This document shows, one piece after another, positions 4,272 to 33,398 of a stretch of 37,454 nt of DNA. The stretch is from contig JARXAH010000055.1 in the NCBI GenBank assembly GCA_029865945.1, positions 1 to 37,454 of the forward strand, written 5' to 3'. Below the pieces are notes generated by a model. It saw only the letters and a list, made by a program, of their open reading frames with translations. It did no database searches and was not told where the DNA came from. The translations under genes and the position numbers were made by a program. The DNA is from Bacteriovoracaceae bacterium (GTDB lineage: Bacteria; Bdellovibrionota; Bacteriovoracia; Bacteriovoracales; Bacteriovoracaceae). Position 1 is the first letter of the stretch, and every line of letters begins with the position of its first letter.

Positions 4272-4384
4272 CAAATTCCTGGCTCATGAAAAGGATCTGC
4301 GTGAGCCTGCTCCTGAGAGGTTACAACTTGAACGACAGCCATTACAGCGAGAACAATAGTGAGAACTTGAAAAAACTTTTTCAT
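4271..4384 (-). CDS. 37-residue secreted peptide precursor (candidate pheromone)
   Basis: This short gene begins MKKFFQVLTIVLAVMAV, a basic start plus a hydrophobic core, then VVTSQEQAHA and the last eight residues DPFHEPGI. The AHA before DPF is a good signal-peptidase I site, so the predicted released product is the octapeptide DPFHEPGI. The reality of the gene is supported by junctions: its ATG overlaps the stop of the hydrolase gene (ATGA) and its TGA overlaps the ATG of the methyltransferase gene (TGATG), exactly like the other joints of this operon. Upstream in the same operon lie an oligopeptide-binding protein, a membrane kinase and a sigma-54 regulator, the parts needed to sense a peptide. 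No Cys is present. The mature length and any trimming are inferred. Confidence 0.7.
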   Translation of the reverse strand: MKKFFQVLTIVLAVMAVVQVVTSQEQAHADPFHEPGI

Positions 4385-6557: not shown

Positions 6558-7948
6558 AAAATAATTGCTCCTAAACGAATTTCAAAGTTGGCCCCACCAA
6601 ATTCACTTGTCCGGTAAATTAATTTACCTCCATGAGTTCTCACAATATGGTTGGTACTTGATAGTCCATATGCCTGTCTTTTTGCTTTATTTGAGTTGCC
6701 TCGCCCCTGAAAAAATAATGTTATGTTTTCTTCTTTCATCCCTGGGCCATCATCACTGACTTGGATGGAAATATATTCACCTAATTTAGTGACTGAAATT
6801 TTAACAAGAGAAATAGAATATTCAACGGCATTTTCAATTAGATTAGTCAGTGCTCTTTTGAGAAGAGCTGGATCATGTGCGGCCATGACTTTTCCATTAG
6901 GGAGATCACATAATATTTTTTTGGATTTTGTCATAACCAAATTATTTTGATGTACACATTCACTAATACAATCTCTTAAATCTAATTCTCTTAAGATGAG
7001 AGGTTCGTCATCAAGATTTTTTCTGGCCGCAGTTACTTGGTTTAATATTTGTTCAGCTGTTCTCGATACTGTGTTGCTAACTTCATTTTTCTCTTCTTCA
7101 TTTAAATTGGGATCATTTATGAATTTTGTCATCTGCCTAAGTGCTGCGACAGGATTATGCAAATCATGAATTAATCTTTTGTATGATTCTGCGTTTAATT
7201 TTTTGGCCTTAATTTCGGCCAGGCGATCATTGGCATTTTCTAAATCAATTTTTGTCTCAAAAACTGTCTTTCGAATTTCTTCTAACTCACGAATACGAAT
7301 TGGTTTAGATTCTTGTTCCATATTTAGAGAAATCAATCCCCGGATTTCACCATGAAGCTGTTCTAGCGGTCTCAGCGTTTTTTTTATGGCTTTTCTCATT
7401 TGTCTTGCTGAAAAGAGAGCAATCACCATGCTAGCGACAAAAGTTAGAAGGAAAATATGCATCGTATTTTTTATTGCCGGTAAAAGTGGACTGATGATGT
7501 GAAGATCAGCGTTATGGATTGCATGGCCCGGTAGAGTTATTGCTTGAGTTGAAACCACTTGAGCGCTTGGAAATAAGAAATCGCTATTAAAAAATTTGTA
7601 AGTTGATATTGGTTTTTCATAAGGCAAATCAAGCTCACTAATTCCTCTTGAGGTAGCAAGTACCCTCCCTTCTTGAACTAAAATCACTTCTGATTTTTTG
7701 ACTTCAGAAACTGAATTAATAACCCTTAGCATTTCAGGTCTATCAAATGATTCCACAAGTGTAGCAAGATAAGGAGACAAACCAGCAAGCAATTCACGAT
7801 CAGATTCCATTTGTGAATTTAAAGCAATTAATGAAAAAAGCATGGCAACAACTGTTGCAACAACTAATGACATTAACCAACGATAAGGATTAATTGAATC
7901 ATTAACATGCCTAAAAAATGAAATTGATGTTTGGTTACCTTGTTTCAT
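6554..7948 (-). CDS. Membrane sensor histidine kinase (module 1)
   Basis: A 464-residue kinase. A transmembrane helix at about residues 23-45 and another at about 163-181 enclose a periplasmic domain of some 115 residues of no recognised family. After a coiled linker comes the dimerisation helix with His261 in RLIHDLHNPVAAL, then an ATP-binding domain with N box NLIENAVEY, G1 box SDDGPGM and a late glycine-rich YGLSSTNHIV. I placed the start at 7948 because this ATG overlaps the stop of the binding-protein gene (ATGA) and the frame upstream is only shadow. The periplasmic domain is the natural contact site for the peptide-binding protein encoded ahead. The partner regulator follows with another ATGA overlap. 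Confidence 0.9.
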   Translation of the reverse strand: MKQGNQTSISFFRHVNDSINPYRWLMSLVVATVVAMLFSLIALNSQMESDRELLAGLSPYLATLVESFDRPEMLRVINSVSEVKKSEVILVQEGRVLATSRGISELDLPYEKPISTYKFFNSDFLFPSAQVVSTQAITLPGHAIHNADLHIISPLLPAIKNTMHIFLLTFVASMVIALFSARQMRKAIKKTLRPLEQLHGEIRGLISLNMEQESKPIRIRELEEIRKTVFETKIDLENANDRLAEIKAKKLNAESYKRLIHDLHNPVAALRQMTKFINDPNLNEEEKNEVSNTVSRTAEQILNQVTAARKNLDDEPLILRELDLRDCISECVHQNNLVMTKSKKILCDLPNGKVMAAHDPALLKRALTNLIENAVEYSISLVKISVTKLGEYISIQVSDDGPGMKEENITLFFQGRGNSNKAKRQAYGLSSTNHIVRTHGGKLIYRTSEFGGANFEIRLGAIIL

Positions 7949-9447
7949 TTGGTCACCACTGTGCGACTGGAGCAATTCACTTTAAAGCTCACTTTGCTAT
8001 AGTCTATATAAACATCAGAAAGAATGTTGGGAGTAAAACCCTCTACACAGTTATCTACCCAGTAGTTAGCGCGCGGATGAAATAAATTAACGGTCAGGGC
8101 CAAATCTTCCACTAATTTAATGGTTTCAATATGCAGTGTTTCTCTAATCTTTCGATCTTGCTGTGTGCGAGAATGCTGGAGAAGGTTATCAAGTTTTTTA
8201 TTTTTTATGCCACTAAAGTTATCAGGGTTAGAGGATTCAAAGTTTTTAAGTAAAAATTCAGGATCTGGATAATCCATATTCATGGCAACTAAAAAGGATT
8301 GATGCGATTTCTTGCTGTAACCTACCATCAGTTTATCCCATGGAAGTAATTCTACTTCAAAATTCCAACCATCTTTACGCATGACCGTTTCAAAAAAAAT
8401 TTTAATTTCACTTGCTGCTGATAATTCAATAGGAATGACTAATTTTATTTTTTTCTTTGGAATTAAGAATTTTTTACTAATGGTACGAGCAAAGTGAATA
8501 TTAGAACCCACAAGCCCATAGGGAATATATCCTCTTGCGGGAATAGCATCAGGATAGAACTTTAATCGAAAGGATTCTACATCAATAGCATTTTTGAATG
8601 CTTGCCTCACCTCTAATTTATCAAAGGGTGGTATTGTTGAATTAATTCCAATAATCCAAGTTGAAGCAACAGGACTAGAAATATTTTTTCCAATTTTAAA
8701 AATGGGATCATTTGTTGTTAATGGCCAATTCGCGAGATCATGCATTTCACCAAGTGCGGCTTGTTTTATGGCCACGTCTTGATTTGTTTCCCGAAGAATA
8801 ATGGAAGCAAGTTTTGGAATAGTTCCATAATAATTTTTGAAGGCCTTAACGGTAATTTCTCTTTTATCAGTATTGAGATCATCAAAGTAGAATGCTCCAG
8901 ATCCGACAGGCTTGTTAAAAAAATTTGCATCATTAATATTTTTAGAAGGAAGAATTTTTGCAGTTGCTCCAGCAAGTATGGAAAGAAAGGGAGGAAAAGC
9001 ATGTCTCAATTTTATTTGAATAGTTTGATCATTAATAGCGCGAAGTCCATTGGTTCCATCAATACAATCATAAAGCTTCTGTACTTTGCTCTCTAGTGAT
9101 AATGCGCGGGCGAGTGACGTCACAACATCTATTGCTGTAATGGATAATCCATTGTGAAATTTTGCATTACTTTTTATTTTAAAGGTTAAAACTTTGCCAT
9201 CAGGACTAGTCGTCCAAGATTCAGCAATAGCAGGTTCAATTTTGAGTGTTGGAGAAAACTTTAAGAGCCCGTCGTATATAAGATTTCCCGCAACCAGTGA
9301 AGCAGTGTCATTCATTTTAATGGGATCAAGGGTGAGCGGAAGTGAGTAAAGGCCTTTGATATATGGCCTTTCTTGGCAATGCGATGGAGAAGATTTTAAA
9401 AACCCAAAAATGAAACAAAAAATTAAAACTCTCAAAGATCCAAACAT
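7945..9447 (-). CDS. Oligopeptide-binding protein (SBP family 5), probable periplasmic peptide sensor
   Basis: A 500-residue protein with an N-terminal signal sequence (MFGSLRVLIFCFIFGFL) and the features of family 5 extracellular solute-binding proteins: YIKGLYSLPLTLDPIKMNDTAS at the mature start, YDGLLKFSP, and WTTSPDGKVLTFKIKSNAKFHNG with ITAIDVVTSLARAL. These proteins bind oligopeptides for ABC importers. No permease or ATPase gene is nearby; instead the gene heads an operon with a kinase and a sigma-54 regulator, so a sensory rather than transport role is likely. A sigma-54 promoter lies about 40 bases upstream. The ligand is unknown, with the small peptide from the same operon as the obvious candidate. 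Its stop overlaps the kinase start. Confidence 0.88.
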   Translation of the reverse strand: MFGSLRVLIFCFIFGFLKSSPSHCQERPYIKGLYSLPLTLDPIKMNDTASLVAGNLIYDGLLKFSPTLKIEPAIAESWTTSPDGKVLTFKIKSNAKFHNGLSITAIDVVTSLARALSLESKVQKLYDCIDGTNGLRAINDQTIQIKLRHAFPPFLSILAGATAKILPSKNINDANFFNKPVGSGAFYFDDLNTDKREITVKAFKNYYGTIPKLASIILRETNQDVAIKQAALGEMHDLANWPLTTNDPIFKIGKNISSPVASTWIIGINSTIPPFDKLEVRQAFKNAIDVESFRLKFYPDAIPARGYIPYGLVGSNIHFARTISKKFLIPKKKIKLVIPIELSAASEIKIFFETVMRKDGWNFEVELLPWDKLMVGYSKKSHQSFLVAMNMDYPDPEFLLKNFESSNPDNFSGIKNKKLDNLLQHSRTQQDRKIRETLHIETIKLVEDLALTVNLFHPRANYWVDNCVEGFTPNILSDVYIDYSKVSFKVNCSSRTVVTK

Positions 9448-9484
9448 GCACTACCTCATTGACGCCAGTTTAGGTTTTTCCTAA

Positions 9485-12769: not shown

Positions 12770-14125
12770 ATGATTTCAAGAGACATTTTGTTGAAAAAAC
12801 CATCCATTCTTTTCGTAGAAGATGACTCGCAGTATGCGACGTCAGTAATGTCATATTTTTCTGACTATAGTTGCTATCTTTCAACAAGTATTTCTTCGGC
12901 CCTAACTTTACTCAAAAATCACTCAATTGATCTTGCTCTTGTTGATATTCAACTTGGTAGTGGTAGTCCAACCGGAAAAGACTTAATTCCATTTCTCCAA
13001 AAATCCGGAATTCCAACTGTAATTTTATCTGGTAGCGATGACAATTTAACCATTAACGAATGTTACGATCTTGGATGTTTTGAATTTATAAAGAAAGGTG
13101 AAGAAGGGTTTGCCATCCCCTACCTGATTACAAAATATTTGCGTTCAGTTTCTCCAACAAAGCAGGAAGATTTTTTTAACTTTCAGTATGCAACCATCAA
13201 TCAGCAGCAAAAATCAAATATAATTAAATCCTTTTCGGCCATATTAACTGGAATTCCAATTAGCATTTTTGGTGAAACTGGCACGGGAAAATCTCATTTA
13301 GCGAGAGCACTTCATTTACTCTCGGGCAGAAGCGGCGAGTTTCATGAAATTAACTGTGCAAACTTAAGTCCCCTACTTGCTGAAAGTGAATTATTTGGGC
13401 ATGAAAAAGGCTCATTTACAGGTGCACATTCCCGAAAGACGGGATTATTTTTAAAGGCAAACAAAGGGACAATTTTTTTAGACGAGATTGCATCTCTAGA
13501 TATTGAAACTCAGGCAAAGCTACTTAAGGCAATCGAAGAAAAAGAATTTTATCCTGTCGGTGCTACTAAACCTGAAAAATCTGATTTCCAAATAATAAGC
13601 GCTAGTAATATTTCGATTGAAGCTCTTGTTGAAGATGGAAAGTTTCGCAGTGATCTCTATTTTCGTATCAACGGTGTGAAGATCGATTTGCTTCCGTTAA
13701 GAGAAAGAAAGGAGGACATCCTTCCTCTTGTATCTAAATTGCTAAAACCAAGAATTCTTGCATTTTCTGACAAGGCAAAGGACGCAATAATAAATCATAA
13801 TTGGTTAGGAAATATTCGTGAGCTTCAGTTTTTTTTACAAAACCTAACGGCCATTAGTGTTGGAAGAGTTGAAGAAATAACAGTTTTAAAATTATTACAA
13901 GAAAGTACAAAGCTAAAAGTCAGTGATCATCAACAAAAAGATATTTACGATATAGCTGTTCAAGAAGGACTCGATCATGCAACAGCAAAAGTTGAAGGCC
14001 AGGTTTTCAAAAGAGCAATCGATGATTTTAACGGTTCGATGCCAAAAATAATTGATTCACTGAAAATTTCAAAGCGAAAATACTATGCACTCTTAAACGA
14101 CCACCCTGTTGGTGGAAGTAATTAA
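12770..14125 (+). CDS. NtrC-family sigma-54 response regulator (module 2)
   Basis: A 451-residue regulator. The receiver has acidic Glu17-Asp18-Asp19 and phosphoacceptor Asp59 (ALVDIQLG). The AAA+ domain has Walker A GETGTGKS at 168-175 and the sigma-54 loop as GSFTGA at 214-219, a recognised variant of GAFTGA, with Walker B IFLDEIAS. The C-terminal helix-turn-helix is more divergent (MPKIIDSLKISKRKYYALL). It is the first gene of module 2 and ends 17 bases before the small-peptide gene. No sigma-54 promoter is visible in the 86 bases ahead, so the regulator may be made constitutively or by read-through from the nuclease genes. Its partner is likely the kinase at the end of the same gene run. 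Confidence 0.92.
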   Translation: MISRDILLKKPSILFVEDDSQYATSVMSYFSDYSCYLSTSISSALTLLKNHSIDLALVDIQLGSGSPTGKDLIPFLQKSGIPTVILSGSDDNLTINECYDLGCFEFIKKGEEGFAIPYLITKYLRSVSPTKQEDFFNFQYATINQQQKSNIIKSFSAILTGIPISIFGETGTGKSHLARALHLLSGRSGEFHEINCANLSPLLAESELFGHEKGSFTGAHSRKTGLFLKANKGTIFLDEIASLDIETQAKLLKAIEEKEFYPVGATKPEKSDFQIISASNISIEALVEDGKFRSDLYFRINGVKIDLLPLRERKEDILPLVSKLLKPRILAFSDKAKDAIINHNWLGNIRELQFFLQNLTAISVGRVEEITVLKLLQESTKLKVSDHQQKDIYDIAVQEGLDHATAKVEGQVFKRAIDDFNGSMPKIIDSLKISKRKYYALLNDHPVGGSN

Positions 14126-14142
14126 TAGCAAAAGGATGTTCT

Positions 14143-14325
14143 ATGAAGAAATTTGGTTCATTGGTTCAGGTAAAAATTTTGTGTGTTCTAACAATACTTG
14201 TAACAGGTGCACTAAACCTTTACGCCAAGACTGCAATGAATGGAAAAATCACTGAATCAAGCATCCAAAAAGATGGCATTGACAACTGTACTGGCGGCGG
14301 ATCTTCATGTGTAAGTAAGCCTTAA
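14143..14325 (+). CDS. 60-residue peptide precursor with Cys/Ser/Thr tail (candidate azoline-modified signal)
   Basis: The precursor begins MKKFGSLVQVKILCVLTILV, a basic start plus hydrophobic stretch, with a possible signal-peptidase site after LYA (residue 28). It ends DNCTGGGSSCVSKP, with Cys49, Thr50, Ser54, Ser55, Cys56 and Ser58 separated by glycines. Glycine-flanked Cys, Ser and Thr are the typical substrates of YcaO cyclodehydratases, which turn them into thiazolines and oxazolines, and such a YcaO gene lies two genes downstream. An AGGA ribosome site precedes the ATG. The neighbours encode a peptide-binding protein, kinase and sigma-54 regulator, so the product is a good candidate signal. 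A Sec-type leader on such a substrate is unusual. The alternative is a disulphide-linked peptide. Confidence 0.65.
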   Translation: MKKFGSLVQVKILCVLTILVTGALNLYAKTAMNGKITESSIQKDGIDNCTGGGSSCVSKP

Positions 14326-14352
14326 TAGAAGCGACTAAACAAATAGGAAAAT

Positions 14353-15843
14353 ATGCAAAAAATATCTTATCTGATTGTTTTTTGCTTACTTGTATACATT
14401 TTTATGAATAGTGATCTTGGTAAAAATACTTTCAAGTTTAAAGATGGGGATGCAATTAATGTTGCATTCCCATTTCGTTTACTCAAGAGTGATTCGTTAA
14501 TGCTAGATCCATTTAATACTGAGTATGCATTACAATATTATTTACTAGAAAATATTTCTTCAGGATTAATCAGAGATAATGTTCATTTTCCTGGAGGTTA
14601 CGAACCCGTTGTTGCAAAAAAATGGGAAAAATTAAACTCTCAAAAATGGCTTTTTATCATTGATGAAAATTCAAAATGGAGCGATGGAAATCCTATTACC
14701 TGCGAAGACGTAAGATGGAATTTGCAAAAAATTAAAGATTCACCAACGAGACATGCTTCAATATTAAAGAATCTAGAAACTATTGAATGTGATCAATCCA
14801 ACAGCAAGGTAGTTTTAAACTTTAGCGTGCCAGCCAACGAGTCATTACTTCATGAACTAAGTCTTGCTGACTCTGGAATTAAACACAAATCAAATCTTAT
14901 GGAAGGATGGAAAGTAACATCTGGCCCATATTTTGTAACAGAATATAGTTCTGAAAAAAGAATATTAAAACTGCAAGCAAACAAATTTTCGAGTTTAATA
15001 ACCGACAAATCACCAAAATCTGTGGTGTTTCATCACATTGGCAAAGAAGTTGATTTCGGAGAAATATTTACTAAAAGCAAGTTAGACCTCTTTCTTATAA
15101 ACGGTGAACTATTTATAAACAAAGTAAAGCCGTTAGAGCAAGCTGCTCCGATGATGCTTTCGAGTGCTCCTAACTGCATTCATTATTTATATTTTAATTC
15201 CAAAAATAAAGACTCAAATAATTTCAAAATAAGAGAATATTTTGCTCATTCGTTTAATGAAGTACTATCACAATTATCTTCACCGAAGTATTTAACGAGA
15301 ATTAAATCGCTGATCCCTCCAGGTTACGTCGGAGCGATTAAAAGTGATATTAATTTTGCAAATAATGAAGCTCCTAAGGAATTATTAAAGAGTAAATTCA
15401 AAATTCTTGTTGGAAAAGAATATACAGACATCAGTGATTACTTAAATCAAATCAAAGACAAACTAGATTCCCAGTTCAACTTAAAAATTGAATATATTTT
15501 TGCTAATGAATCTGATGATGATGATTGCTTTGGCAGAATACAATCTTTTGTCGGAAATCAAAGAGATCCACTTGGTTCATGGAATTTTTTGTATGGCTCT
15601 GAAAATGGCAAGCTTGCGATGTTTAAAGATAATGTTTCCTCTTTGCTTGAAAAAGTTGGCTCAATTGATAATGAAGAGCAAAAAAGGCAAATTCTCGAAG
15701 AAATTCATTTCAAGACTTTAAAAAATGTTTATGCCATTCCATTATGGATCACACAATCGGCCACTTTCTACAGTAAGCGTGTAAATTTAACTAAGTGGAA
15801 TACTTTTGACATGAGACTCAGAATTTATGATGTCATCCTCTAA
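14353..15843 (+). CDS. Oligopeptide-binding protein (SBP family 5), module 2
   Basis: A 496-residue protein with a short N-terminal hydrophobic segment (ISYLIVFCLLVYIFMNS) that would export or anchor it, followed by the family 5 binding-protein pattern: LDPFNTEYALQYYLLENISSGL, WEKLNSQKWLFIIDENSKWSDGNPITCEDVRWNL. It belongs to the same family as the binding protein of module 1 but is clearly diverged. No ABC permease or ATPase gene accompanies it, so it probably presents a peptide to the kinase two genes downstream. The YcaO start lies inside its last codons (17-base overlap), so translation of the two is coupled. The hydrophobic start lacks an obvious cleavage site; it may be a membrane-tethered form. 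Confidence 0.85.
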   Translation: MQKISYLIVFCLLVYIFMNSDLGKNTFKFKDGDAINVAFPFRLLKSDSLMLDPFNTEYALQYYLLENISSGLIRDNVHFPGGYEPVVAKKWEKLNSQKWLFIIDENSKWSDGNPITCEDVRWNLQKIKDSPTRHASILKNLETIECDQSNSKVVLNFSVPANESLLHELSLADSGIKHKSNLMEGWKVTSGPYFVTEYSSEKRILKLQANKFSSLITDKSPKSVVFHHIGKEVDFGEIFTKSKLDLFLINGELFINKVKPLEQAAPMMLSSAPNCIHYLYFNSKNKDSNNFKIREYFAHSFNEVLSQLSSPKYLTRIKSLIPPGYVGAIKSDINFANNEAPKELLKSKFKILVGKEYTDISDYLNQIKDKLDSQFNLKIEYIFANESDDDDCFGRIQSFVGNQRDPLGSWNFLYGSENGKLAMFKDNVSSLLEKVGSIDNEEQKRQILEEIHFKTLKNVYAIPLWITQSATFYSKRVNLTKWNTFDMRLRIYDVIL

Positions 15844-16765
15844 TGGCCAACCAAATACTTGGTCTCCAAACCTTAATTTTTTAAAGTCTGGTCAATTCAC
15901 AATAGACAACGGTTCTTTAAAAGAAAATATCACCTGGAACTTTAATAACTTAAAGTCTTTCCTTCCAGGCATAACAAACATCGAATGCGAAATTAATGCT
16001 TTTGGAGTTATGGCCAAAGGATATGGAGATGGCTTCTCACTTCACATTTCACTTATTAAAGCATTTGCAGAAGCATTCGAACGAGCGGTTATGCTTTCAA
16101 AGTGTCCTGAGGCTTCCTCGTCAAATGGGTTTTCGGCCGAGAGAAATCAGCTGTTAGCGATTTACTCATCACGCAATGAACTACTAGAACGCTCTATACT
16201 TTTAGAAGCTTGGAAAAATAAGTATGCTTTCTCATTTCACCATCATAAATCCATCACGGTAAAATTTTATGAATTTTTCCTAAAGCAGCGGAAGATAAAA
16301 TTAGAGTATTTCAAAATTAATTCTAATGCTGGTGAGGTCTTGGCAGTTCTTGTTCAACATTCAAATGGCCAATGCCTATTTGATAGTACCTATCTTGCTC
16401 CTGTGAAAAAACAGACTCAAGAAGCTGAGAGAAGACTTCTCTTATCTGTTAATCGAAATCTAGGTGTTTTTGATAAATGCAAGCTAGAAGCAGAATGGAA
16501 TTTACCCGAGAAGGGATTACCAGAGGATCATCGTAAATTCTATTTAAATCCGGCCAATAAAATTGCATTTGATTTTTTGAAAAAAATAAACAGCAATGAA
16601 AATAAATTAATCTTATCAGAAGTAGAAAAAATCAAATCGGAAGTAATTTTTGAACATCCTGGTCTTCCAGTTGTCGCCAATTCACATCACACCAAATGGA
16701 AAAAACTAGAATGGGGCAAGTGCTCAATTGATGGAATTAATCCTTGGCCTCATCCACTAGCATGA
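15827..16765 (+). CDS. YcaO-family cyclodehydratase-like protein with C-terminal PxPxP
   Basis: A 312-residue compact YcaO protein. The ATP-binding motifs of the family are visible in order: GDGFSLHISLIKAFAEAFER (conserved Glu-x-x-Glu-Arg at about 82-86), SSNGFSA at 98-104, and NELLERSILLEAW at 117-129, with a later QEAERRLLLSV. The last residues are NPWPHPLA, a clean PxPxP, which is diagnostic of azoline-forming YcaO enzymes that modify Cys, Ser and Thr in peptides. It is shorter than most. No separate ThiF/E1-like partner is encoded in the window, so it would act alone or with a distant partner. The substrate is probably the Cys/Ser/Thr-rich peptide encoded two genes upstream. Its stop overlaps the kinase start (ATGA). 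Confidence 0.8.
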   Translation: MMSSSNGQPNTWSPNLNFLKSGQFTIDNGSLKENITWNFNNLKSFLPGITNIECEINAFGVMAKGYGDGFSLHISLIKAFAEAFERAVMLSKCPEASSSNGFSAERNQLLAIYSSRNELLERSILLEAWKNKYAFSFHHHKSITVKFYEFFLKQRKIKLEYFKINSNAGEVLAVLVQHSNGQCLFDSTYLAPVKKQTQEAERRLLLSVNRNLGVFDKCKLEAEWNLPEKGLPEDHRKFYLNPANKIAFDFLKKINSNENKLILSEVEKIKSEVIFEHPGLPVVANSHHTKWKKLEWGKCSIDGINPWPHPLA

Positions 16766-18333
16766 GAATACGATCGCCATTTAAAACATGGGTCATTTTA
16801 AATTTCCTAGCATCAATTATCATCGGTGTCGGTCTATTTAATATTTATAACCAATCTCAAGAATACAATCAATCGATTGTTCGGACCTATTGGGACATAT
16901 TAACAAGATCAAGAATAAGTGATTTGAACCAAGGAAACTTTAGAAATTTTGTTGAAGGACTTGGCCCAATTTACAGAGATATGTTTATTGAAATTAGGCA
17001 AGAGAAACAGATTTTTAACTCTGGAAATTCTGATGGTAAAAATGTTTGCGAAAAAAGAAAACTCTTAACTTATTCTGAAGGAAGTGATGTAGAAATCACC
17101 ATGTGCATAAAAGATCTGATTCCCTATGGAAAGATGTTAGCATTTGCATCAATTTATCTTCTTTTCTCAATCATTACATTAATTAGTTTGCGAAGATTAC
17201 AACTTGATTTCTTAAATGGCCTATTTTCTTTTTTAGAGCAAACGGAAGTGAAATTAATTAAATTTAAAAATCTCAGTGGTCCGATAAAAAAATTAGAAGA
17301 AATCAAGAACTCGATCCTTGAATCTAAAAATTCTGCCATTATAAAAACTAAGCATGAAACTATTTTGCAGGTTTCAAAGCAAGTCGTTCACGATATTGGA
17401 TCTCCTCTTTCTGCGTTAGAAATCAATTTGAAAAGATTGCGAAACAGCTCAGGTGCACATGACCAAAAAAGCATTAATTTAATCGATCGAATTAAAGATA
17501 TTTTAGCTGATTTAAATAATGAGGAATTGGCCGTTAAAACCCACAACACTAAAGAGATCGCTAAACCAATTTCATGCATGATTTTTGATATTGTTAATGA
17601 ATTTAAGGTGAGATCAATTCCTGTTAAGTTTGATGTAAAGTATAAAGATTTATTTCTAACTTCTAATATCACTGAAAGTGATTTTAAACGAATCATTTCA
17701 AATTTAATTAATAATTCCTGGGATGCTTGTGACAAAGTCACTGGAAAAATTAATGTGAATATTTCCGAAGGCATAAACGTATCAATCATTGATAATGGCC
17801 AAGGAATTAGTGCTGAAGTATTACCCATGCTAGGGAAGCAAGTATTTACCGAAAAAGAAAATGGCAATGGGCTTGGAGTGATAGATGCATTTAGAAAAAT
17901 TGAAAGTTATGGTGGTAGAATTTCCTATGAATCTCAGATAGGTATAGGAACAAACGTTACTCTTTCAATTCCCAATAAAGAATTAAAAGTTATCTCACAT
18001 TCACAACTATTTTTAATCCATGATGATAATAATTTTGTTGAAGATTTTAAAAAGAAAACAAGTTATTTGCCAAATAAACTATCAGTTTTTAGCAATCCAC
18101 ATGATTTTATTTTTTGGTTTAAAAATAATACATTTTTGGTTCCATCATTTTATCTCATAGGACAATCTTTTATTAATGGCCAAGAGTCAGGGGCCAATCT
18201 CATCAAATTTTTAAAAATCTCACAAAATTCATGCCTTATCGTTGACGATCAAAATGAATTAGAAGAACGCAAGTTGTCGAGTCGAAATGGTTTAAAATGG
18301 CTTCCTAAAGATTTATTTATACATCTCATATGA
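16762..18333 (+). CDS. Histidine kinase with C-terminal degenerate receiver (module 2)
   Basis: A 523-residue kinase. A first membrane helix (about residues 9-28) and a second (about 124-145) flank a roughly 95-residue periplasmic region. The phosphoacceptor is His210 in QVVHDIGSPLSALEI, followed by N box NLINNSWDACD, G1 box IDNGQGIS and G2 box GNGLGVIDAF. After the ATPase domain, about 110 more residues resemble a receiver: LFLIHDDNNF keeps the acidic pair, but the place of the phosphoacceptor reads FYLIGQSF with no Asp. This pseudo-receiver may regulate the kinase. I chose the ATG at 16762 since it overlaps the YcaO stop; a TTG at 16744 is an inferior alternative. A strong hairpin follows the gene. 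Confidence 0.88.
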   Translation: MRIRSPFKTWVILNFLASIIIGVGLFNIYNQSQEYNQSIVRTYWDILTRSRISDLNQGNFRNFVEGLGPIYRDMFIEIRQEKQIFNSGNSDGKNVCEKRKLLTYSEGSDVEITMCIKDLIPYGKMLAFASIYLLFSIITLISLRRLQLDFLNGLFSFLEQTEVKLIKFKNLSGPIKKLEEIKNSILESKNSAIIKTKHETILQVSKQVVHDIGSPLSALEINLKRLRNSSGAHDQKSINLIDRIKDILADLNNEELAVKTHNTKEIAKPISCMIFDIVNEFKVRSIPVKFDVKYKDLFLTSNITESDFKRIISNLINNSWDACDKVTGKINVNISEGINVSIIDNGQGISAEVLPMLGKQVFTEKENGNGLGVIDAFRKIESYGGRISYESQIGIGTNVTLSIPNKELKVISHSQLFLIHDDNNFVEDFKKKTSYLPNKLSVFSNPHDFIFWFKNNTFLVPSFYLIGQSFINGQESGANLIKFLKISQNSCLIVDDQNELEERKLSSRNGLKWLPKDLFIHLI

Positions 18334-18378: not shown

Positions 18379-19068
18379 TTAATCGACAGAAGCATCACTA
18401 TAGAGATCATCAAATATTCTAGGCTTAAGCATTTCGTTATCTTTGGTGGTCATGCCTCCAAAACGAACAACGATTTTATAGTCAACATTGATTAGTGGCC
18501 CAATAGCTCCTACTCCATCTTTGTTGACTGCTGTAAAGCTGTAGTAATATTGAAATGGAACCACGCCTCCATCAAACCAAAGTGGCCGGTAGGTTTTATC
18601 ACCACGTTTGTTTAGGATAAAGTTACAGGGAATCTCATCGCCAGCTTGTGAAGAATCGTGGGAACATCCATTCACCATGACAAAAAGATTCTGTGTTTCA
18701 TCTAATACAATTTTTGATGACGAAAAAGGAATCGGAGCAAACTTCGCCTTAGAGTTGATATCTCGAAGAATTATATCTTTTGATTCTTCAAAAGCTGCCA
18801 AATTGTGGACTGGTTTCACGATACTATTAATCAAATAGCCTCTATCGCCATTAACTTTTGTTTTGGTGTAATTGAAGCACCGATTACTCTTGCATGCAAT
18901 TTGAAGCGAACTTGGTGCGTACCAAAAGATGGTCGGATCTTGTGAATCCTTCCAAAAAGTAAACATGCGCTCTCCAAAAGCAAAATTTTCATTGAGAACA
19001 GGAACAGCTTGAGCAGCTCCGGAAATCAACATCAAAGTGATAAGTACATTTTTTATTGATCTATTCAT
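18379..19068 (-). CDS. Exported protein of unknown function, related to the 20271-21284 product
   Basis: About 229 residues starting MNRSIKNVLITLMLISGAAQA, a standard signal peptide with cleavage after AQA. The mature protein begins VPVLNENFAFGERMFTFWKDSQDPTIFWYAPSS. The opening and the phrase DSQDPTIFWYAP parallel VLYPDSQNPKLFYYFP-like text in the first gene of the same operon, so the two look like diverged paralogues. Cysteines in the mature part come in pairs and may form disulphides. I chose the ATG at 19068, eight bases inside the lipoprotein gene's end, rather than the frame's first ATG at 19104, because the signal peptide starts there. It is the last gene of a four-gene operon behind a sigma-54 promoter. 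No known domain is recognised. Confidence 0.75.
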   Translation of the reverse strand: MNRSIKNVLITLMLISGAAQAVPVLNENFAFGERMFTFWKDSQDPTIFWYAPSSLQIACKSNRCFNYTKTKVNGDRGYLINSIVKPVHNLAAFEESKDIILRDINSKAKFAPIPFSSSKIVLDETQNLFVMVNGCSHDSSQAGDEIPCNFILNKRGDKTYRPLWFDGGVVPFQYYYSFTAVNKDGVGAIGPLINVDYKIVVRFGGMTTKDNEMLKPRIFDDLYSDASVD

Positions 19069-19402
19069 TTTCTTGCTTCTTTTTAATGACACAACTGTCT
19101 TCACAGTCGATGTCTAGTTTTTGATCCAGCAACTGATAAGTTGCTTTCTTTTGGGAAGGCAAATTTTTATGAATAGAAAATAAAAGATCCTCTTTGGTCA
19201 TTCGCTTTTCCAAATTAAATTGATCTGCAAATTTTCTTATGCTTGCAACTTCTGTTTGGGTAAGGGAAGTGGTGTTGCCACTTGGTTCATTATTGCTTGT
19301 TTCAGGTTGAGTCGTACTAGTGCTCCCCCCACCTCCTCCACTACATGACACCATTGATAAAACCGCGATTAGAGATAAAACATTTATTTTTAATTTTTTC
19401 AT
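19061..19402 (-). CDS. Small lipoprotein with polyglycine/serine linker
   Basis: About 113 residues starting MKKLKINVLSLIAVLSMVSC; the Cys after SMVS fits a lipobox, so the protein should be lipidated and anchored in a membrane. Then follow a run of five glycines and a Ser/Thr/Asn-rich linker, and a C-terminal part with predicted helices and two cysteines (DIDCEDSCVIKKK) that could form a loop. The start at 19402 is supported by a GGAAGG ribosome site; the upstream MEGNF is not needed. Third gene of the exported-protein operon. No function is recognised. Confidence 0.7.
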   Translation of the reverse strand: MKKLKINVLSLIAVLSMVSCSGGGGGSTSTTQPETSNNEPSGNTTSLTQTEVASIRKFADQFNLEKRMTKEDLLFSIHKNLPSQKKATYQLLDQKLDIDCEDSCVIKKKQENE

Positions 19403-19429
19403 AAAATTGCCTTCCATTTAAGTAAATGA

Positions 19430-20239
19430 TTAATTGAATTTAATTTTGAAGTTGGGAGTAAAAAACTCATCGGTGGAGTTTAGCCTATCCTCACTGATTC
19501 CGAAGGAAAGCTTTGCCAACTGAAATGAATTTTTTGAATCATCAATTAAATCAGTAAAGCTTCTCACTGGAACTTTTTCTTCATAATTCACACAAACCTG
19601 AAAAAATTTTGCAAATAAATATTTCTGCTCAGATTCAGTAATGGAATTCTGCTCCGACATTTGCTGAAATTTTTCAAATACCGAAAATATTCCCTTATTT
19701 TTCCTGTCATCGGCAAAGTTGCATGGACTAGTTGCCAATTGAATACTTGTCTCTTGAAGGCGTGTTCTTGAAAACGGTGCATTCATAACTGAAACGTAGG
19801 CTTTACGGTTAGCCATAGACGATTTAATTTGTTTTAAAAGTCCTGCTGAAATTTGAAAGGTCTGTGCATCTTCCCAAGATGTTTCAGCAGTGCGAAACGG
19901 CATTTTAAATGTGCTTCCATCAACAAATTGAAGTTCAATGTAGTAACCGTTGTCATCAATAAGATTTGGAGTAATTGGTGCGTACAAAATATTATATCCA
20001 GGATACTTTCGTTTTAACGAATCAAAAAGTGGACGGGCAGCATCGGTATCTTGCTTCACGTTGATAGTAATGGCCGCATAATTTTCGGATGGCACCTCAA
20101 GTAAACTAAAATCCAAAGCAAAATCTGTTCTTACATATATTTTTTTGGATTTTTGAAGAACATCATAATCTTGAGTCGTTTGCGACCAAGACTGAACGGA
20201 AAAAAACAAAAATACTAAACTCATCAATTTTATAAACAT
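19430..20239 (-). CDS. Secreted protein of unknown function
   Basis: A 269-residue protein with a clear signal peptide (MFIKLMSLVFLFFSVQSWSQ, probable cleavage after SWS). No domain is recognised. The mature part is mixed alpha/beta in appearance, with a YVRTDFALDFSLLEVPSENYAAITINVKQDTDA strand-rich start and two cysteines (SPCNFADD and FFQVCVNYEE) far apart. An AGGAGA ribosome site precedes the ATG. It lies 31 bases behind the first gene of the sigma-54-driven operon and 27 bases ahead of the lipoprotein gene. Its partners are all exported, which suggests a shared periplasmic or surface assembly. Confidence 0.7.
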   Translation of the reverse strand: MFIKLMSLVFLFFSVQSWSQTTQDYDVLQKSKKIYVRTDFALDFSLLEVPSENYAAITINVKQDTDAARPLFDSLKRKYPGYNILYAPITPNLIDDNGYYIELQFVDGSTFKMPFRTAETSWEDAQTFQISAGLLKQIKSSMANRKAYVSVMNAPFSRTRLQETSIQLATSPCNFADDRKNKGIFSVFEKFQQMSEQNSITESEQKYLFAKFFQVCVNYEEKVPVRSFTDLIDDSKNSFQLAKLSFGISEDRLNSTDEFFTPNFKIKFN

Positions 20240-20270
20240 GTTGCTCTCCTTAAATAATGATTAAAAATTA

Positions 20271-21284
20271 TTAGGCATCAATTTCGCTATAGAGTTCTGG
20301 GTAGTCCTTTAAAATAGTTCCAAGGCTCATTGTAGTACAGTAGTTAAGATCCAAGGGCTCACTACTATCAAGAATGATATGGCGATCTCGATCTTCCTCA
20401 ATTCTTGTATAACTCAGTCCCCAGTTGGCCGACACTTCACTTCTGCGATTAGGAAGTTGTGGTTCAAAAAATCTGGCCATCATTTTTTCAGTCAAACTTT
20501 CAAGGTAAGCGCGCTCAGTTTCTGTTCCGCCTTCCATTTTGATTACAATGCTGCCACTTTCTTTTAATTTTTCAAGTTCCGCTCGAACTTCAAAACGTTG
20601 AAACCATTTTCTTCCAGATGCTCTGGCCATGAAATGCTCGTACACTTTGTGATAATTCAGTGTCACTTCGCCATGAAATTTAGGAGTGGTTCCACTCACG
20701 GTATAGCAATATTGAAACGTAGTACCATTGGATTGATTTGTCACTAATGCGGCCTTTAAAATGGCAGCACCGACAGGAGTAAGAGTTGCAGAGAATCCAA
20801 ATGGATCTTCTGGGCGTCCAGCTCGGTCAGGAAGAGCTACTTCTTTAAAAATCCCAGATAAAAATTCACGTTCACCAGCTTTTTTGGACGTTAAAGTGAA
20901 ATAGCTGCTTCTTACGGGAAGAGGGGCCAACTGAAATCCTGCATCACGTTTCAATTTTAAAGCATCGGCTTGCGCTTTAGTATTTTCAAGTCCAAGAACA
21001 CCTGAAATATAACCACCCACTCCATCTACGGGTTGGTTGAGTTTTACCATCGTAAAATCTGGAATTCCTTTTTCATCTTTTAAAACTTTTCCCGTGTTTG
21101 GAAAGTAATAAAATAGTTTTGGATTTTGGCTGTCAGGATAAAGGGTCACCGATTTGAGATCTTCAGAAACAATAGAATCGCCAGAGAGCCCTAGTACCGG
21201 GATAGCGTGTACTACTTGATTGAGGAACAGAAATATTCCAATCATTACAGATTTGGAATTAGAGCAATTAATTTGGGGTAACAT
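20271..21284 (-). CDS. Exported protein of unknown function, first gene of the sigma-54 operon
   Basis: A 337-residue protein with a signal sequence ending near VVHA, so the mature start is IPVLGLSGDSIVSEDLKSVTLYPDSQNPKLFYYFPNTG. The start resembles the product of the last gene of the operon (VPVLNEN ... DSQDPTIFWYAP), pointing to duplication. A mid part (GEVTLNYHKVYEHFMARASG, then ELEKLKESGSIVIKM) has amphipathic helices and beta segments, but I do not recognise the family. A GGAG ribosome site precedes the ATG, and a near-perfect sigma-54 promoter lies 65 bases upstream. The product is probably periplasmic or outer surface. The function is unknown. Confidence 0.75.
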   Translation of the reverse strand: MLPQINCSNSKSVMIGIFLFLNQVVHAIPVLGLSGDSIVSEDLKSVTLYPDSQNPKLFYYFPNTGKVLKDEKGIPDFTMVKLNQPVDGVGGYISGVLGLENTKAQADALKLKRDAGFQLAPLPVRSSYFTLTSKKAGEREFLSGIFKEVALPDRAGRPEDPFGFSATLTPVGAAILKAALVTNQSNGTTFQYCYTVSGTTPKFHGEVTLNYHKVYEHFMARASGRKWFQRFEVRAELEKLKESGSIVIKMEGGTETERAYLESLTEKMMARFFEPQLPNRRSEVSANWGLSYTRIEEDRDRHIILDSSEPLDLNYCTTMSLGTILKDYPELYSEIDA

Positions 21285-21348: not shown

Positions 21349-21365
21349 TGCAACCATGGTGCCAA
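21349..21365 (-). promoter_or_regulatory. Near-perfect sigma-54 promoter of the exported-protein operon
   Basis: Read on the minus strand, TTGGCACCATGGTTGCA matches the -24/-12 consensus TTGGCAC-N5-TTGCA at every conserved base and has the exact spacing. Transcription should start near 21338, about 54 bases before the ATG at 21284. The activator is presumably one of the two NtrC-type regulators of the window. Confidence 0.85.
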
Positions 21366-21976: not shown

Positions 21977-22417
21977 ATGAATCAAACAGAAAAATTTCAC
22001 ACTGTGAAACCTAGCGTGCCAAAACTCTATCGCTTCCAGCTTTACTTGGGAGAAAAAAATGAAAATGGAAAAATTCAAAAATCTAAAATTGTGGGAATGA
22101 GCTATCTAGCAGAAGGACATGGGACGTACACACTAAGACTTTGGACTTTTCTGAATACAAACTTCTACATGGTCATGAGCAAAACGAATGCTTCGGATTG
22201 TCTGCTTATGAGTAAAGAAGCAAACAAGAATGAATATTCAAAAACTAAGCATCACTGGAACGTCATCGGCAATGGAAAAGTTAATGCCACCCAAAACTGC
22301 ATTGAATTGAATTTTGATTTATTTGAAAAACCAATTTACATGAGCATATTTCCTGAAAGTAATACCACGCCGTCAGGAACTAGAAGCAATGAACATGATT
22401 TATCTTTGGTTTCATAA
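21977..22417 (+). CDS. Conserved-looking protein of unknown function in the conjugation operon
   Basis: A 146-residue cytoplasmic protein with an AAAAGGAG ribosome site before the ATG. It looks beta-rich: LYRFQLYLGEKNENGKIQKSKIVGMSYLAEGHGTYTLRLWTFL, then NFYMVMSKTNASDCLLMSKEA, which could be a small barrel or a single-strand-binding-like fold; this is a guess from pattern only. The gene lies 27 bases after the zinc-ribbon gene and 25 bases before the pilin-like gene, so it belongs to the transfer operon. No function is recognised. Confidence 0.6.
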   Translation: MNQTEKFHTVKPSVPKLYRFQLYLGEKNENGKIQKSKIVGMSYLAEGHGTYTLRLWTFLNTNFYMVMSKTNASDCLLMSKEANKNEYSKTKHHWNVIGNGKVNATQNCIELNFDLFEKPIYMSIFPESNTTPSGTRSNEHDLSLVS

Positions 22418-22442
22418 AAATAATTTCAAAAAGGAAATACTA

Positions 22443-22730
22443 ATGAAAAACAAAAATCTTATAGAACTATTTATCTTATGTCTCTTGGCCATTTTGATTA
22501 CTCCTTGCCTGGCCCATGCAGGACTTGAAACTAGCTTAGTCGCCATAAAATCAAAACTAACAATTGTCATATTACCGCTTCTATCAGTGATAGGAATTGC
22601 CCTAGCAGGGACTTCGTTTTTCACCGGCAATCCCAATGCAAAGCAACACATTGCCTACGCAGTCATTGGTTCGATTATTGGATTTGGTGCGCAGGGAATC
22701 GTTGACTTTATTTCACAAACAGTTCGATAG
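22443..22730 (+). CDS. VirB2/TrbC-like pilin precursor
   Basis: A 95-residue protein: signal peptide LIELFILCLLAILITPCLAHA, then two hydrophobic helices (LTIVILPLLSVIGIALAGTSFF and HIAYAVIGSIIGFGAQGIVDFI) separated by a short polar loop. Size, signal peptide, two helices and position just before a VirB3-like gene fit VirB2/TrbC major pilins, which build the conjugative pilus. The chosen ATG has AAAGGAAA ahead; an in-frame ATG 18 codons upstream lies in the previous gene and is unlikely. The sequence itself is weakly conserved, so the call rests on architecture and context. Confidence 0.7.
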   Translation: MKNKNLIELFILCLLAILITPCLAHAGLETSLVAIKSKLTIVILPLLSVIGIALAGTSFFTGNPNAKQHIAYAVIGSIIGFGAQGIVDFISQTVR

Positions 22731-22738
22731 GAGGATGC

Positions 22739-23074
22739 ATGGATGAGCAAGGGTTACTAACAAGTAAAGTACCTCGTGCGCTAGAGATAAGAAGCACATT
22801 ATTTGGATTTGATTTACCAGATCTATTGATTATTTTTTTTAATCTAGCGATTACTAATTTAGTTTTTGGTGGAACGAACTTTCGCTATTCACTAGTTTGG
22901 GGAACAACAATTACTCTGGCCCTTTTTTTGTATTTTTCTAAAAAGGGAAAACCAGAAAACTACTTGCACCACTACTGCGAATACCTAATTAGTCCAACAT
23001 ACTTTTCAGCAGGTGAACATGATCTCTCCTATAAACCATTCAAAAGGAATAATAATGGTAAACACGAAAATTAA
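22739..23074 (+). CDS. VirB3/TraL-like type IV secretion protein
   Basis: A 111-residue protein beginning with KVPRALEIRSTLFGFDLPDLL, the short proline-arginine start and membrane-proximal pattern of VirB3/TraL, followed by two adjacent membrane helices (LLIIFFNLAITNLVFG and YSLVWGTTITLALFLYF). VirB3 is an inner-membrane component linked to the VirB4 ATPase. A strong AGGAGG site precedes the ATG, and the gene overlaps the VirB4 gene by 20 bases, the usual neighbour. Confidence 0.75.
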   Translation: MDEQGLLTSKVPRALEIRSTLFGFDLPDLLIIFFNLAITNLVFGGTNFRYSLVWGTTITLALFLYFSKKGKPENYLHHYCEYLISPTYFSAGEHDLSYKPFKRNNNGKHEN

Positions 23075-25571
23075 TAATGAATCAAGTATGGCAATGCAAA
23101 TTCCTTATTGGGAATTCTTTGATGATCCTATTGGACACGTAGTCATTAATGACGGTTCTATTGTGGCCGGAATTAAAGTTGGCCTCATTGATATTGAATG
23201 CTTTGATGAAAGAAAAATAAATCAACTAACTTCGGGACTTAGGTCCTTACTCGATTCAATCTCGGAGGGAGTTACCGTTCAGTTTTTAATGAGTATTAAG
23301 TCTGATTATGCAGATTTTCTTAACAATAGTTTGCATCAAGGGCAAGAGGACATTCATCCTCTTATCCAAAAAATTGCAATGGGTAGGAAGATAAATTTTA
23401 CTGAAGAAGTTGATAACGGTGAACTTTATAGGCCTGAGCTTTATGTTTTTTTTAAAACGAGTCCCATTGATAAGAAGACGATGAACTTTTTTAAAAAGAA
23501 GGATGAGTTTTCTAAAGAATCATTTCAATCTTATGAAGAAGTTTTGGAGTTGTTAATTCAAAATCTAGAAAATTTAAAATCAAATTTTGATTCCCTTGGA
23601 ATTCATTCTGAAGTTTTGAGTCAAAAGGAAATTACAGCAAAGATTTATCATTTTCTAAATCCAAAAAGATCACTTAGTGAACCACTGCCAGAAATAAAAA
23701 CTTTAAATGAAAATTTCTTTGATCAAGATGAAGTATCACAAGAAGCTTGGCTTGCAGACACTTCGCCAAGAGAACAACTTTGTTTCGGTGATCTCGTTTT
23801 AGGATTGGAACATTACAGTCTTGATTCCAACTACCATAAAGTAATTACGCTAAAGACTTTGCCTGAGATGACATTTGCGGGACAAATTTCCAATTTCTTA
23901 AGAATGCCATTTCATTATGATTTATTTTTAACTTTTGAAGTCCCCATGCAGTCAGCAGAGTTTAGTAAGCTTCAGCAAAAAAGAAAAATGGCCCACTCAC
24001 TAACTATCACTCAAGGCAATCAGGCATCTGATTTAGAAAGTGAATCCAAACTCAGTTCTACCGAGGAACTTATTAGGGAATTGCTCAATACTGGTCAAAG
24101 AATTTATGCCGTTCAAATGTCCATCATCTTAAGAGCAAGTGCAAATGCTGGAGGAGAAAAAATTCTTAACCGTCAGGTAAGAGATGTCCTTTCACGCTTT
24201 AGATCCCTGCAAGGAGCTGAGGGATTAGAGGAAACTGTTGGAGCCTGGAAAATTGCGAGGGGAAATCTACCAGCTGCACCACTAGAGCTAGTAAGGGCAA
24301 AGAAGATGAAAACCCATAATCTAGCGGATTTCCTACCTATCTATGGGCCACGTGTTGGAGATGATGACCCTGTTGTTATCTTTAAAAATAGGCTTAATGG
24401 ACTTGTTGGATTTAATTCCTTTGATCCTGCTCTTCCCAATTATAATTCTCTTGTCACTGGTTCGTCAGGAGCAGGGAAAAGCTTTTTAAATAACTGCATT
24501 TTGCTTCAAGAATTAAACCGAGGCCTAAAAGTTTTTATTATTGATATCGGTGGGTCATATAAAAAAATCACTGAAGCCTTAGAAGGTCAATATATTGAAA
24601 TGAATTTAAGCGATGAATATAAAATTAATCCATTTCATATTCATAATATTTCAGAAGGTCCAAGCAATCAAAAATTAAAATCTCTCCTAGCAATTATTGA
24701 AAGTATGGTGGGAGAAAATGAAAAAACAAAACTTTTAAAACTTGATCGCGCCATTTTGGAAAAATCTATCATTGAACTTTATAAATTTCATGCAAAGAAG
24801 GGAGAGATTCCAACACTGACTGATCTAGCATTGTTGTTAAGCTCATCTGATGAAGAGTCTATGAGGACAATCTCTAAAATGCTCTACCTTTGGACTGGTG
24901 ATCGTCCCTATGGAAAGTTACTTGATGGGCAGGGATCACTAAATTCAGAGGCAAGAATATGCACTTTTGATCTCAAGGGTCTTTCTTCTTACCCAGATTT
25001 ACAAAGTGTCATGATTCTCCTTTTGACTGATTTTATTTTAACTCAAATTGAAATGGATAAAAGTCAGCGTAAAAGAATCATTCTTGATGAAGCGTGGGAA
25101 CTTTTAAAATCTGATGCGGCAGCAAATTTCATGGAGTACTGCGCACGTACTTTAAGAAAAACGGGATCAGGTATTACGTTTATTACTCAAGGAATTGAAG
25201 AGATTGCGGCCAGTCCCATTGGTTCGGCCATTCTAAATAATACAGCGACAAAATTTATTATGCTTCAGCGGGGTGATTCTGAAATATTAAAAAATACCCT
25301 AAAGCTTAATTCTCAGGAATTAAATCTCATTCATTCACTTGAACAAAGAAAAGGAAAATATTCTGAAGGCTTCATGATTGAAGGAGATCATAGGCAGGTC
25401 GTAAGAATATTTCCCAACCCCATTGAATACTGGCTAGCAACTAGTGATGCCACTGATAACAATTATCTTAATCAACTTCAATTAAGTGGAATGTCACTCG
25501 TTGAGGCCATTGAATTAGCGGCCCATGATTATCCCCAAGGTTTCTCTCAAAAAAAGGGAGATAAATCATGA
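23055..25571 (+). CDS. virB4: VirB4/TrbE-type conjugation ATPase
   Basis: An 838-residue ATPase of the VirB4/CagE/TraC family that energises pilus assembly and substrate transfer at the inner membrane. The Walker A is GSSGAGKS at about 469-476, Walker B is IILDEAWELL, and the late ITQGIEEIAAS and KFIMLQRGD segments are typical of the family. The N-terminal half (IPYWEFFDDPIGHVVINDGSIVAGIKV onward) matches the CagE-type region. I chose the ATG at 23055; the earlier in-frame ATG lies deep in the VirB3 gene. No other secretion ATPase of the VirB11 kind is present in the window, so VirB4 and the coupling protein would be the only motors. It overlaps the next gene by four bases. Confidence 0.93.
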   Translation: MVNTKINNESSMAMQIPYWEFFDDPIGHVVINDGSIVAGIKVGLIDIECFDERKINQLTSGLRSLLDSISEGVTVQFLMSIKSDYADFLNNSLHQGQEDIHPLIQKIAMGRKINFTEEVDNGELYRPELYVFFKTSPIDKKTMNFFKKKDEFSKESFQSYEEVLELLIQNLENLKSNFDSLGIHSEVLSQKEITAKIYHFLNPKRSLSEPLPEIKTLNENFFDQDEVSQEAWLADTSPREQLCFGDLVLGLEHYSLDSNYHKVITLKTLPEMTFAGQISNFLRMPFHYDLFLTFEVPMQSAEFSKLQQKRKMAHSLTITQGNQASDLESESKLSSTEELIRELLNTGQRIYAVQMSIILRASANAGGEKILNRQVRDVLSRFRSLQGAEGLEETVGAWKIARGNLPAAPLELVRAKKMKTHNLADFLPIYGPRVGDDDPVVIFKNRLNGLVGFNSFDPALPNYNSLVTGSSGAGKSFLNNCILLQELNRGLKVFIIDIGGSYKKITEALEGQYIEMNLSDEYKINPFHIHNISEGPSNQKLKSLLAIIESMVGENEKTKLLKLDRAILEKSIIELYKFHAKKGEIPTLTDLALLLSSSDEESMRTISKMLYLWTGDRPYGKLLDGQGSLNSEARICTFDLKGLSSYPDLQSVMILLLTDFILTQIEMDKSQRKRIILDEAWELLKSDAAANFMEYCARTLRKTGSGITFITQGIEEIAASPIGSAILNNTATKFIMLQRGDSEILKNTLKLNSQELNLIHSLEQRKGKYSEGFMIEGDHRQVVRIFPNPIEYWLATSDATDNNYLNQLQLSGMSLVEAIELAAHDYPQGFSQKKGDKS

Positions 25572-26263: not shown

Positions 26264-26280
26264 ATTCCAAGGAGGCAAAC

Positions 26281-33194: not shown

Positions 33195-33398
33195 ATGACA
33201 AAAGTAAAAAATTCTGTGACAAAATTGAAAAGAAAAAATGACATAAAGATAAACTTCCTACCTGTCTATGAATCAAAAATATTATTCCAAGAAAGAAAAG
33301 AAATTGTGCAACAATTTATTGTAAAAATGATTCTCCTTGGAAGTAAACGTGGAAGGCCATCACACAAGGAAATGGAAGAGGTTTCGAATGCAGCATAA
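33195..33398 (+). CDS. Small basic protein coupled to the recombinase
   Basis: About 67 residues, very basic (MTKVKNSVTKLKRKNDIKI) with a helical part (ESKILFQERKEIVQQFIVKMILLG) and an end KRGRPSHKEMEEVSNAA, which carries a RGRP AT-hook-like segment. I prefer the ATG at 33195 because GGAG lies ahead of it; an ATG four codons upstream lacks such a site. It overlaps the recombinase start by 11 bases, so the two are translationally coupled. A role as a recombination directionality factor is a guess from position and size. Confidence 0.55.
   Translation: MTKVKNSVTKLKRKNDIKINFLPVYESKILFQERKEIVQQFIVKMILLGSKRGRPSHKEMEEVSNAA

Follow-up and report, generated by a model that had tools for sequence, protein, structure and literature searches.

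Gene Content of the YcaO Operon

Why should a YcaO enzyme share an operon with a small Sec-like peptide, an oligopeptide-binding protein, a histidine kinase (HK) and a sigma-54-dependent response regulator (RR)? This question is raised by contig JARXAH010000055.1 (assembly GCA_029865945.1) of a Bacteriovoracaceae bacterium. The window, by which we mean this whole stretch of 37,454 nucleotides, is an entire contig of a 3.08-Mb genome. All five genes described in an earlier sequence-only reading were found where that reading had placed them, as judged from the coordinates of the open reading frames (ORFs) and, for the regulator, binding protein and kinase, from Pfam. We think it rather probable that they form a self-contained signal-and-sensor module, in which a YcaO-modified peptide is self-sensed and read by a relay of substrate-binding protein (SBP), kinase and sigma-54 regulator, closing an autoinducing loop.

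The five genes lie on the forward strand. The regulator (12770..14125) combines a receiver with an AAA+ activator carrying a GSFTGA loop (Pfam Sigma54_activat, 1.8e-53; Response_reg, 1.9e-8), and it may in fact begin further on, at a TTG near 12791. It is followed by a 60-aa Sec-like precursor peptide (14143..14325), which ends in DNCTGGGSSCVSKP and whose tail, IDNCTGGGSSCVSKP, is the putative YcaO core; both its place and its tail are conserved in relatives. The SBP_bac_5 (oligopeptide-type) binding protein (14353..15843; Pfam, 5.4e-17) has an N-terminal membrane or signal segment, and the SBP profile of the module matches the structures of the oligopeptide-binding proteins AapF, OppA and PrgZ, the last of which binds a pheromone (4faj, 6.6e-19). 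Next come the compact stand-alone YcaO (15827..16765), ending in PWPHPLA, and a membrane HK (16762..18333, with ATG 16762 as its likely start; HATPase_c, 2.5e-15), which has a C-terminal receiver-like region and an H-D-I-x-S-P motif conserved in the alignment of relatives. There is an overlap between the SBP and YcaO ORFs, and the letters ATGA contain both the stop of the YcaO and the likely start of the HK; the regulator, peptide, SBP, YcaO and kinase are one overlapping operon. Sigma-54 (RpoN) is encoded by the same genome.

Identity of the YcaO Enzyme and Candidate Chemistry

Taken alone, the window YcaO stays under the cut-off of Pfam PF02624 (13.4 bits vs 25.7; E = 0.048). The Pfam family was matched by 34 of 35 aligned family members (E <= 0.01), and the family profile in turn matched solved YcaOs, including MJ1094 (1.7e-18) and McbD (5e-9) as well as MusD, TruD, LynD and the M. 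kandleri YcaO. The window protein was also modeled with AlphaFold2 (pLDDT 72, pTM 0.74), and the top Foldseek matches of the model were the M. kandleri YcaO (6ci7; 1.2e-6, TM 0.55) and McbD (6gos; 2.7e-4). Across 65 homologs, the ATP/Mg-site pattern (ExxER ... SNG ... ExxER) is kept, with E82, R86, G101, E118, E121 and R122 invariant and E85 at 98%. Based on the homolog profile, the fold comparison and the invariant ATP site, membership of protein 15827..16765 in the YcaO family is confirmed.

The sequence-only reading had argued for azolines from the PxPxP end of this enzyme. Most of the 65 homologs end in (P)HPhG/A, and PxPxP is restricted to the window YcaO and the three closest to it (L088-L090). 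We therefore rejected the motif as proof of azolines, since it is not conserved across the family, and azoline formation becomes just one chemical option. Four sampled homologs showed weak similarity to the SagD-type family of thiazole/oxazole-modified microcins (TOMMs), far under its cut-off, and a Pfam scan covering all window proteins but a few small ORFs gave no E1-like or RiPP recognition element (RRE) partner (RiPP, ribosomally synthesized and post-translationally modified peptide). A Cys/Ser/Thr-containing core, which is a feature of azoline-forming clusters (TOMMs, or linear azol(in)e-containing peptides), is present in the window tail CTGGGSSCVSKP. In bottromycin biosynthesis, a single Cys can be the target of a stand-alone YcaO. 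Because of this precedent, and because a Cys near the tail end is the commonest feature of the small peptides, a thiazoline appears to be the most likely modification, with an amidine and then a thioamide as possible products. ItfB is a YcaO that forms an amidine in its precursor, at the C-terminal end (PMC10352776).

Conservation of the Module across the Phylum

A search with the window YcaO against 59 relatives returned homologs in four of them in addition to the row of its own genome, yielding five seed sequences for a profile. Each of these first matches lies directly downstream of an SBP_bac_5-like gene. The five-sequence profile found matches in 108 of the 369 genomes of the phylum and 68 of its 182 genera, and some genomes carry several copies; this count takes in weak and partial matches. 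A scan of genome contigs with a narrower YcaO alignment gave 13 matches, from Bdellovibrionota-type metagenome-assembled genomes or unplaced proteobacteria, and says little about phyla other than Bdellovibrionota.

We examined the 65 best YcaO loci of the phylum, a set that is not an unbiased census because its profile was seeded from SBP-linked YcaOs. An SBP_bac_5 gene adjoins the YcaO in 60 of these loci, nearly always together with a kinase and in many cases with a sigma-54 regulator. The gene order of the window, [RR]-peptide-SBP-YcaO-HK, occurs in 49 loci, with overlapping SBP and YcaO ORFs in 47 of them, and the order YcaO-peptide-SBP-HK-RR in 11. The pairwise distances of YcaO, SBP and HK correlate (Mantel r 0.75, 0.70 and 0.60, reached by 0 of 2000 permutations), a correlation to which shared ancestry, not removed here, contributes. 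No OppB/OppC permease homolog was detected in any of the 65 loci, and an ordinary Opp uptake operon was rejected on this ground.

The genome of the window also holds a second, divergent set of YcaO, SBP and small peptide (L228; contig 19, 2616-7243), in which the kinase gene is divergently placed and the peptide tail, HSPKEGGNSGN, is without Cys; an SBP-HK pair lies on its contig 29. Five loci (L069, L078, L081-L083) have YcaO homologs without an SBP. The YcaOs of L082 and L083 come after proteins with the Cys-containing ends TATNSSSYCDST and TATNCSSYCDCS, that of L078 is near a protein with a Cys-rich end, and those of L069 and L081 are near PqqD-like proteins. These five look like conventional RiPP clusters and are set apart from the module.

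The Small Precursor Peptide

By a simple rule for Sec signals, a small Sec-like ORF ends within 75 nt before the SBP start in 47 of 55 YcaO-linked SBPs, as compared with 2 of 20 SBPs that adjoin neither a YcaO nor a kinase (Fisher, 2e-9). Both Cys and Gly are overrepresented in the tails of these small proteins relative to their middle part, Cys at 3.8% against 1.0% (p = 6e-8) and Gly at 12.5% against 4.1%. In 36 of the 47, the final 25 residues include a Cys, which usually stands a few positions before the C-terminal end, in contexts such as SSIC, GTIC, GTVC and TSC. Most homologs thus have a Cys-containing tail, and the outcome that the sequence-only reading had named as refuting its proposal, loss of the conserved Cys/Ser/Thr where the YcaO is kept, did not arise. 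The window tail IDNCTGGGSSCVSKP is mirrored in L089 (LNCTGGGGTSCYAR) and, on a broken contig, in L088 (HNCIDGGHCLSK), despite the YcaOs of these two loci being just 32-33% identical to that of the window. A chance ORF was rejected as an explanation of the 60-aa peptide, given the placement statistics and the tail pattern kept in the closest relatives.

In a further locus, L055, one SBP is preceded by a tandem pair of precursor-like ORFs (reverse strand; 4831-5588 when numbered in YcaO orientation), both with Cys-containing ends (TTGRCETI and SSGKCEGI).

Related Sensor Modules with Other Enzymes

Among the other SBP_bac_5 genes of eight relatives and of the window's own genome, the SBP-kinase(-regulator) unit recurs without YcaO and with another enzyme, often together with a small Sec-like protein. 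The L155 and L164 modules contain an aKG-HExxH peptide beta-hydroxylase (NCBIfam TIGR04267, at or above cut-off; aKG, alpha-ketoglutarate), which is resembled by eye by the HExxH proteins of the L157 and L169 modules. A radical SAM/SPASM protein is present in L165 (Pfam, 3e-20), and L166 was assigned to the same type by its position and matching end; the small Sec-like proteins of these two modules end in AISIGGTF or ALSIGTTF.

The third enzyme type pairs an ICMT-like methyltransferase with an alpha/beta hydrolase, and the window has a module of this type too, running along the minus strand from 9447 to 3726. It comprises an SBP_bac_5 protein (7945..9447; Pfam, 2.3e-51), a histidine kinase (6554..7975; HATPase_c, 9e-17), a sigma-54 response regulator with a GAFTGA motif (5175..6557; Pfam, 1.2e-53), the alpha/beta hydrolase (4381..5178; Abhydrolase_6, 1.3e-13), a 37-aa Sec-like peptide, MKKFFQVLTIVLAVMAVVQVVTSQEQAHADPFHEPGI, ending in HEPGI and absent from the ORF list (4271..4384), and the ICMT-like membrane methyltransferase (3726..4274; ICMT, 9.9e-8, with a conserved neighborhood). 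This module type is conserved in about 20 loci, and in the related loci examined the peptide stands just before the ICMT-like gene and almost always ends in PGI or PGV. Modules with other enzymes lend independent support to the view that each combines a peptide, a modifying enzyme and a sensor. The single YcaO unit of the sequence-only reading is real; that reading had missed the family with interchangeable enzymes to which it belongs, the second module in the window and the conjugative type IV secretion system (T4SS) adjacent to both modules.

Sigma-54 Promoters and Likely Output

Sigma-54 sites were scored against the consensus TGGCAC-N5-TTGCW, with a score of at least 12.6 of 13.7 counted as near-perfect. 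Such promoters head 13 of 56 YcaO modules, where randomly chosen positions within those loci would give an expected 0.43; this excess suggests that the modules are autoregulated by their own regulators.

In the window, a sigma-54 promoter with a full consensus match, TGGCACCATGGTTGCA (21349..21364, minus strand), lies 80 nt upstream of a four-gene operon on the same strand (18379..21284), which abuts the kinase gene and encodes secreted proteins of 337, 269, 118 and about 229 aa. None of these proteins matched a Pfam family over cut-off. Homologs of the operon adjoin an SBP-HK-RR module in L223 and an RR gene at a contig end in L224, and no strong sigma-54 site lies directly before most of the homologs. 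Mainly because of this neighborhood, together with the window's own sigma-54 site, the operon is the likely output of the window regulator. The L223 module (2322-10106) also includes proteins that by eye are GNAT-like and metallo-beta-lactamase-fold-like, and a 392-aa protein.

Linkage to Conjugative Elements

The window contains a conjugative T4SS with VirB2-VirB10 and a VirD4-like protein (22389..31054, forward strand). VirB4 (TraG P-loop, 3.9e-38) and VirD4 (T4SS-DNA_transf, 2.3e-10) were recognized by Pfam, and the other genes were named by their order and size, the order being conserved in relatives. A large serine recombinase follows (33337..35106, forward strand; Resolvase, 2.1e-31; Recombinase, 2.9e-15). 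The T4SS genes and the recombinase mark a putative conjugative element.

A VirB4 gene is at most 15 kb away from 15 of the 56 YcaO modules (0.8 expected) and from 9 of 18 ICMT modules (0.17 expected), where the expectation comes from VirB4 counts and random positions in a 3.6-Mb genome; many modules have no VirB4 nearby within their available sequence. One relative (L225-L227) resembles the window in carrying both a YcaO and an ICMT module with the same T4SS backbone. The best reading is that the module is often carried by conjugative elements; it may also control their transfer.

Three related elements with ICMT modules (L200, L202 and L205) share a sigma-54-like site (TGGCAC...AGCA) about 975 nt before virB2, an observation that is only suggestive of sigma-54 control of the T4SS cluster.

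Proposed Mechanism and Alternative Explanations

The sequence-only reading had proposed a modified peptide that serves as a sensed signal, and this is still the best reading, because the YcaO is coupled to a secreted peptide, an SBP, a kinase and a sigma-54 regulator and no Opp permease accompanies them in the 65 loci. From the computed gene content, homology, operon order, tail conservation, promoter sites and T4SS linkage, we infer the substrate, chemistry, ligand and wiring as follows. The small peptide would be synthesized with a Sec signal, and the stand-alone YcaO would modify its C-terminal Cys/Gly/Ser/Thr tail in the cytoplasm through ATP-dependent backbone chemistry. The modified peptide would then leave the cytoplasm via Sec and be bound in the periplasm by the oligopeptide-type SBP, which would set the activity of the membrane kinase. 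The kinase would control the sigma-54 regulator, and the regulator would turn on the neighboring operon of secreted proteins; in many relatives it would also activate the operon that encodes it, which would close an autoinducing loop.

Several points weigh against this proposal. The choice of loci through a profile seeded with SBP-linked YcaOs biases the sample towards the SBP-YcaO arrangement, and a conserved neighborhood is no proof that the SBP binds the peptide. Modification by a YcaO ahead of Sec export is unusual, and a crude rule, instead of a trained predictor, served to call the Sec signals. Eleven of the 47 small proteins are without Cys in their last 25 residues (some keep Ser or Thr), and the cores of some small proteins are unclear. 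The window's own regulator gene has just a weak sigma-54-like site (10.5 of 13.7).

The small protein might instead be an accessory subunit of the SBP-kinase sensor, which would then sense an outside ligand while the YcaO modifies some other target, be it SBP, kinase or a cellular protein. The long non-core region of many small proteins (90-170 aa) and the absence of a tail Cys in some would fit such a role, and E. coli YcaO illustrates that a small precursor is not a required substrate for this family. We regard this explanation as unlikely in view of the Cys/Gly enrichment of the tails next to the YcaO, and of the related modules, which keep a small Sec-like peptide with different modifying enzymes and different tails (PGI/PGV; SIGGTF/SIGTTF). 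Antibiotics are common among YcaO peptides, and the autoregulation seen at the promoter level would also be expected if the product were a modified peptide antibiotic or toxin whose presence the SBP, kinase and regulator sense in order to induce the operon and protect the producer, in the manner of lantibiotic autoinduction. Beside the window module there is neither a dedicated ABC exporter nor a peptidase or recognizable immunity gene, although immunity genes need not be recognizable; the lack of an Opp permease in the 65 loci also speaks against an antibiotic, and the occurrence of several modules per genome with different enzymes fits signaling better. We therefore give an antibiotic or toxin a low probability. 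That the SBP detects prey or environmental peptides, with the secreted peptide tuning the sensor as a decoy or competitor, would suit both an SBP of the oligopeptide-binding family and relatives that are, by their genus names, predators. It leaves unexplained why each SBP is paired with its own peptide and a peptide-modifying enzyme, and we consider it very improbable.

Extending the self-sensed peptide proposal, the modules may represent phylum-wide modified-peptide pheromones of Gram-negative predatory bacteria, exported by Sec, matured by interchangeable enzymes and read by the SBP-kinase-sigma-54 relay, that decide when conjugative elements transfer. We put this wider idea forward tentatively and with considerable doubt.

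Relation to Known Systems

In the LuxP-LuxQ-LuxO system of Vibrio, a periplasmic binding protein acts through a membrane histidine kinase on a sigma-54 response regulator. The module likewise has a binding protein, a membrane kinase and a sigma-54 regulator, whereas its SBP belongs to family 5 (SBP_bac_5, oligopeptide type) and not to the LuxP family, and its likely ligand is a ribosomal modified peptide from the same operon. ComX, AIP (autoinducing peptide) and the lantibiotics are ribosomal peptides, each with a dedicated modifying enzyme and a two-component system that senses it. The module peptide would share these attributes and differs in its Gram-negative envelope, binding-protein receptor, sigma-54 output and interchangeable enzymes. 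Like ItfB (PMC10352776) and the bottromycin enzymes, the window YcaO would act on a small precursor without an evident E1 or RRE partner; in contrast to those systems, the precursor is Sec-like and an SBP-HK-sigma-54 receiver takes the place of biosynthetic partners.

In pCF10 (cCF10/PrgZ) and ICEBs1 (PhrI/RapI), secreted peptides control conjugation via uptake and cytoplasmic RRNPP receptors (PMC6540685). The module resembles them in its secreted small peptide, its oligopeptide-binding protein (as PrgZ) and its linkage to conjugation. Those systems are Gram-positive and import an unmodified peptide (PMC6540685), whereas the module has a kinase and regulator in place of uptake, as well as a modifying enzyme. 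By analogy, we liken the module to LuxPQ-LuxO in its relay and to peptide pheromones in its likely ligand; we assign it to neither, because the SBP is not LuxP-like and a role of the peptide in transfer is hypothetical.

Signals made of modified peptides, kinases coupled to binding proteins and conjugation linked to pheromones are already known separately. Their combination with interchangeable enzymes is new as far as open papers show: searches of the open literature on YcaO with Bdellovibrio, SBP, kinase or conjugation returned no matching system. If the proposal is true, the modules would define a new class of post-translationally modified ribosomal signals in Gram-negative bacteria and a candidate peptide communication system for predatory bacteria and their relatives. 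With enzyme and receptor side by side, candidate ligand-receptor pairs could be read from genomes, and how the conjugative elements of these bacteria decide to move would become directly testable. The YcaO and ICMT modules within one window provide an internal comparison.

Neighboring Genes

A PD-(D/E)XK/NucS-like nuclease gene (11754-12683, forward strand) lies directly upstream of the YcaO module, and an Eco57I-type methylase gene is located at 217-1701 of the window. The two are possible defense or restriction genes of the element.

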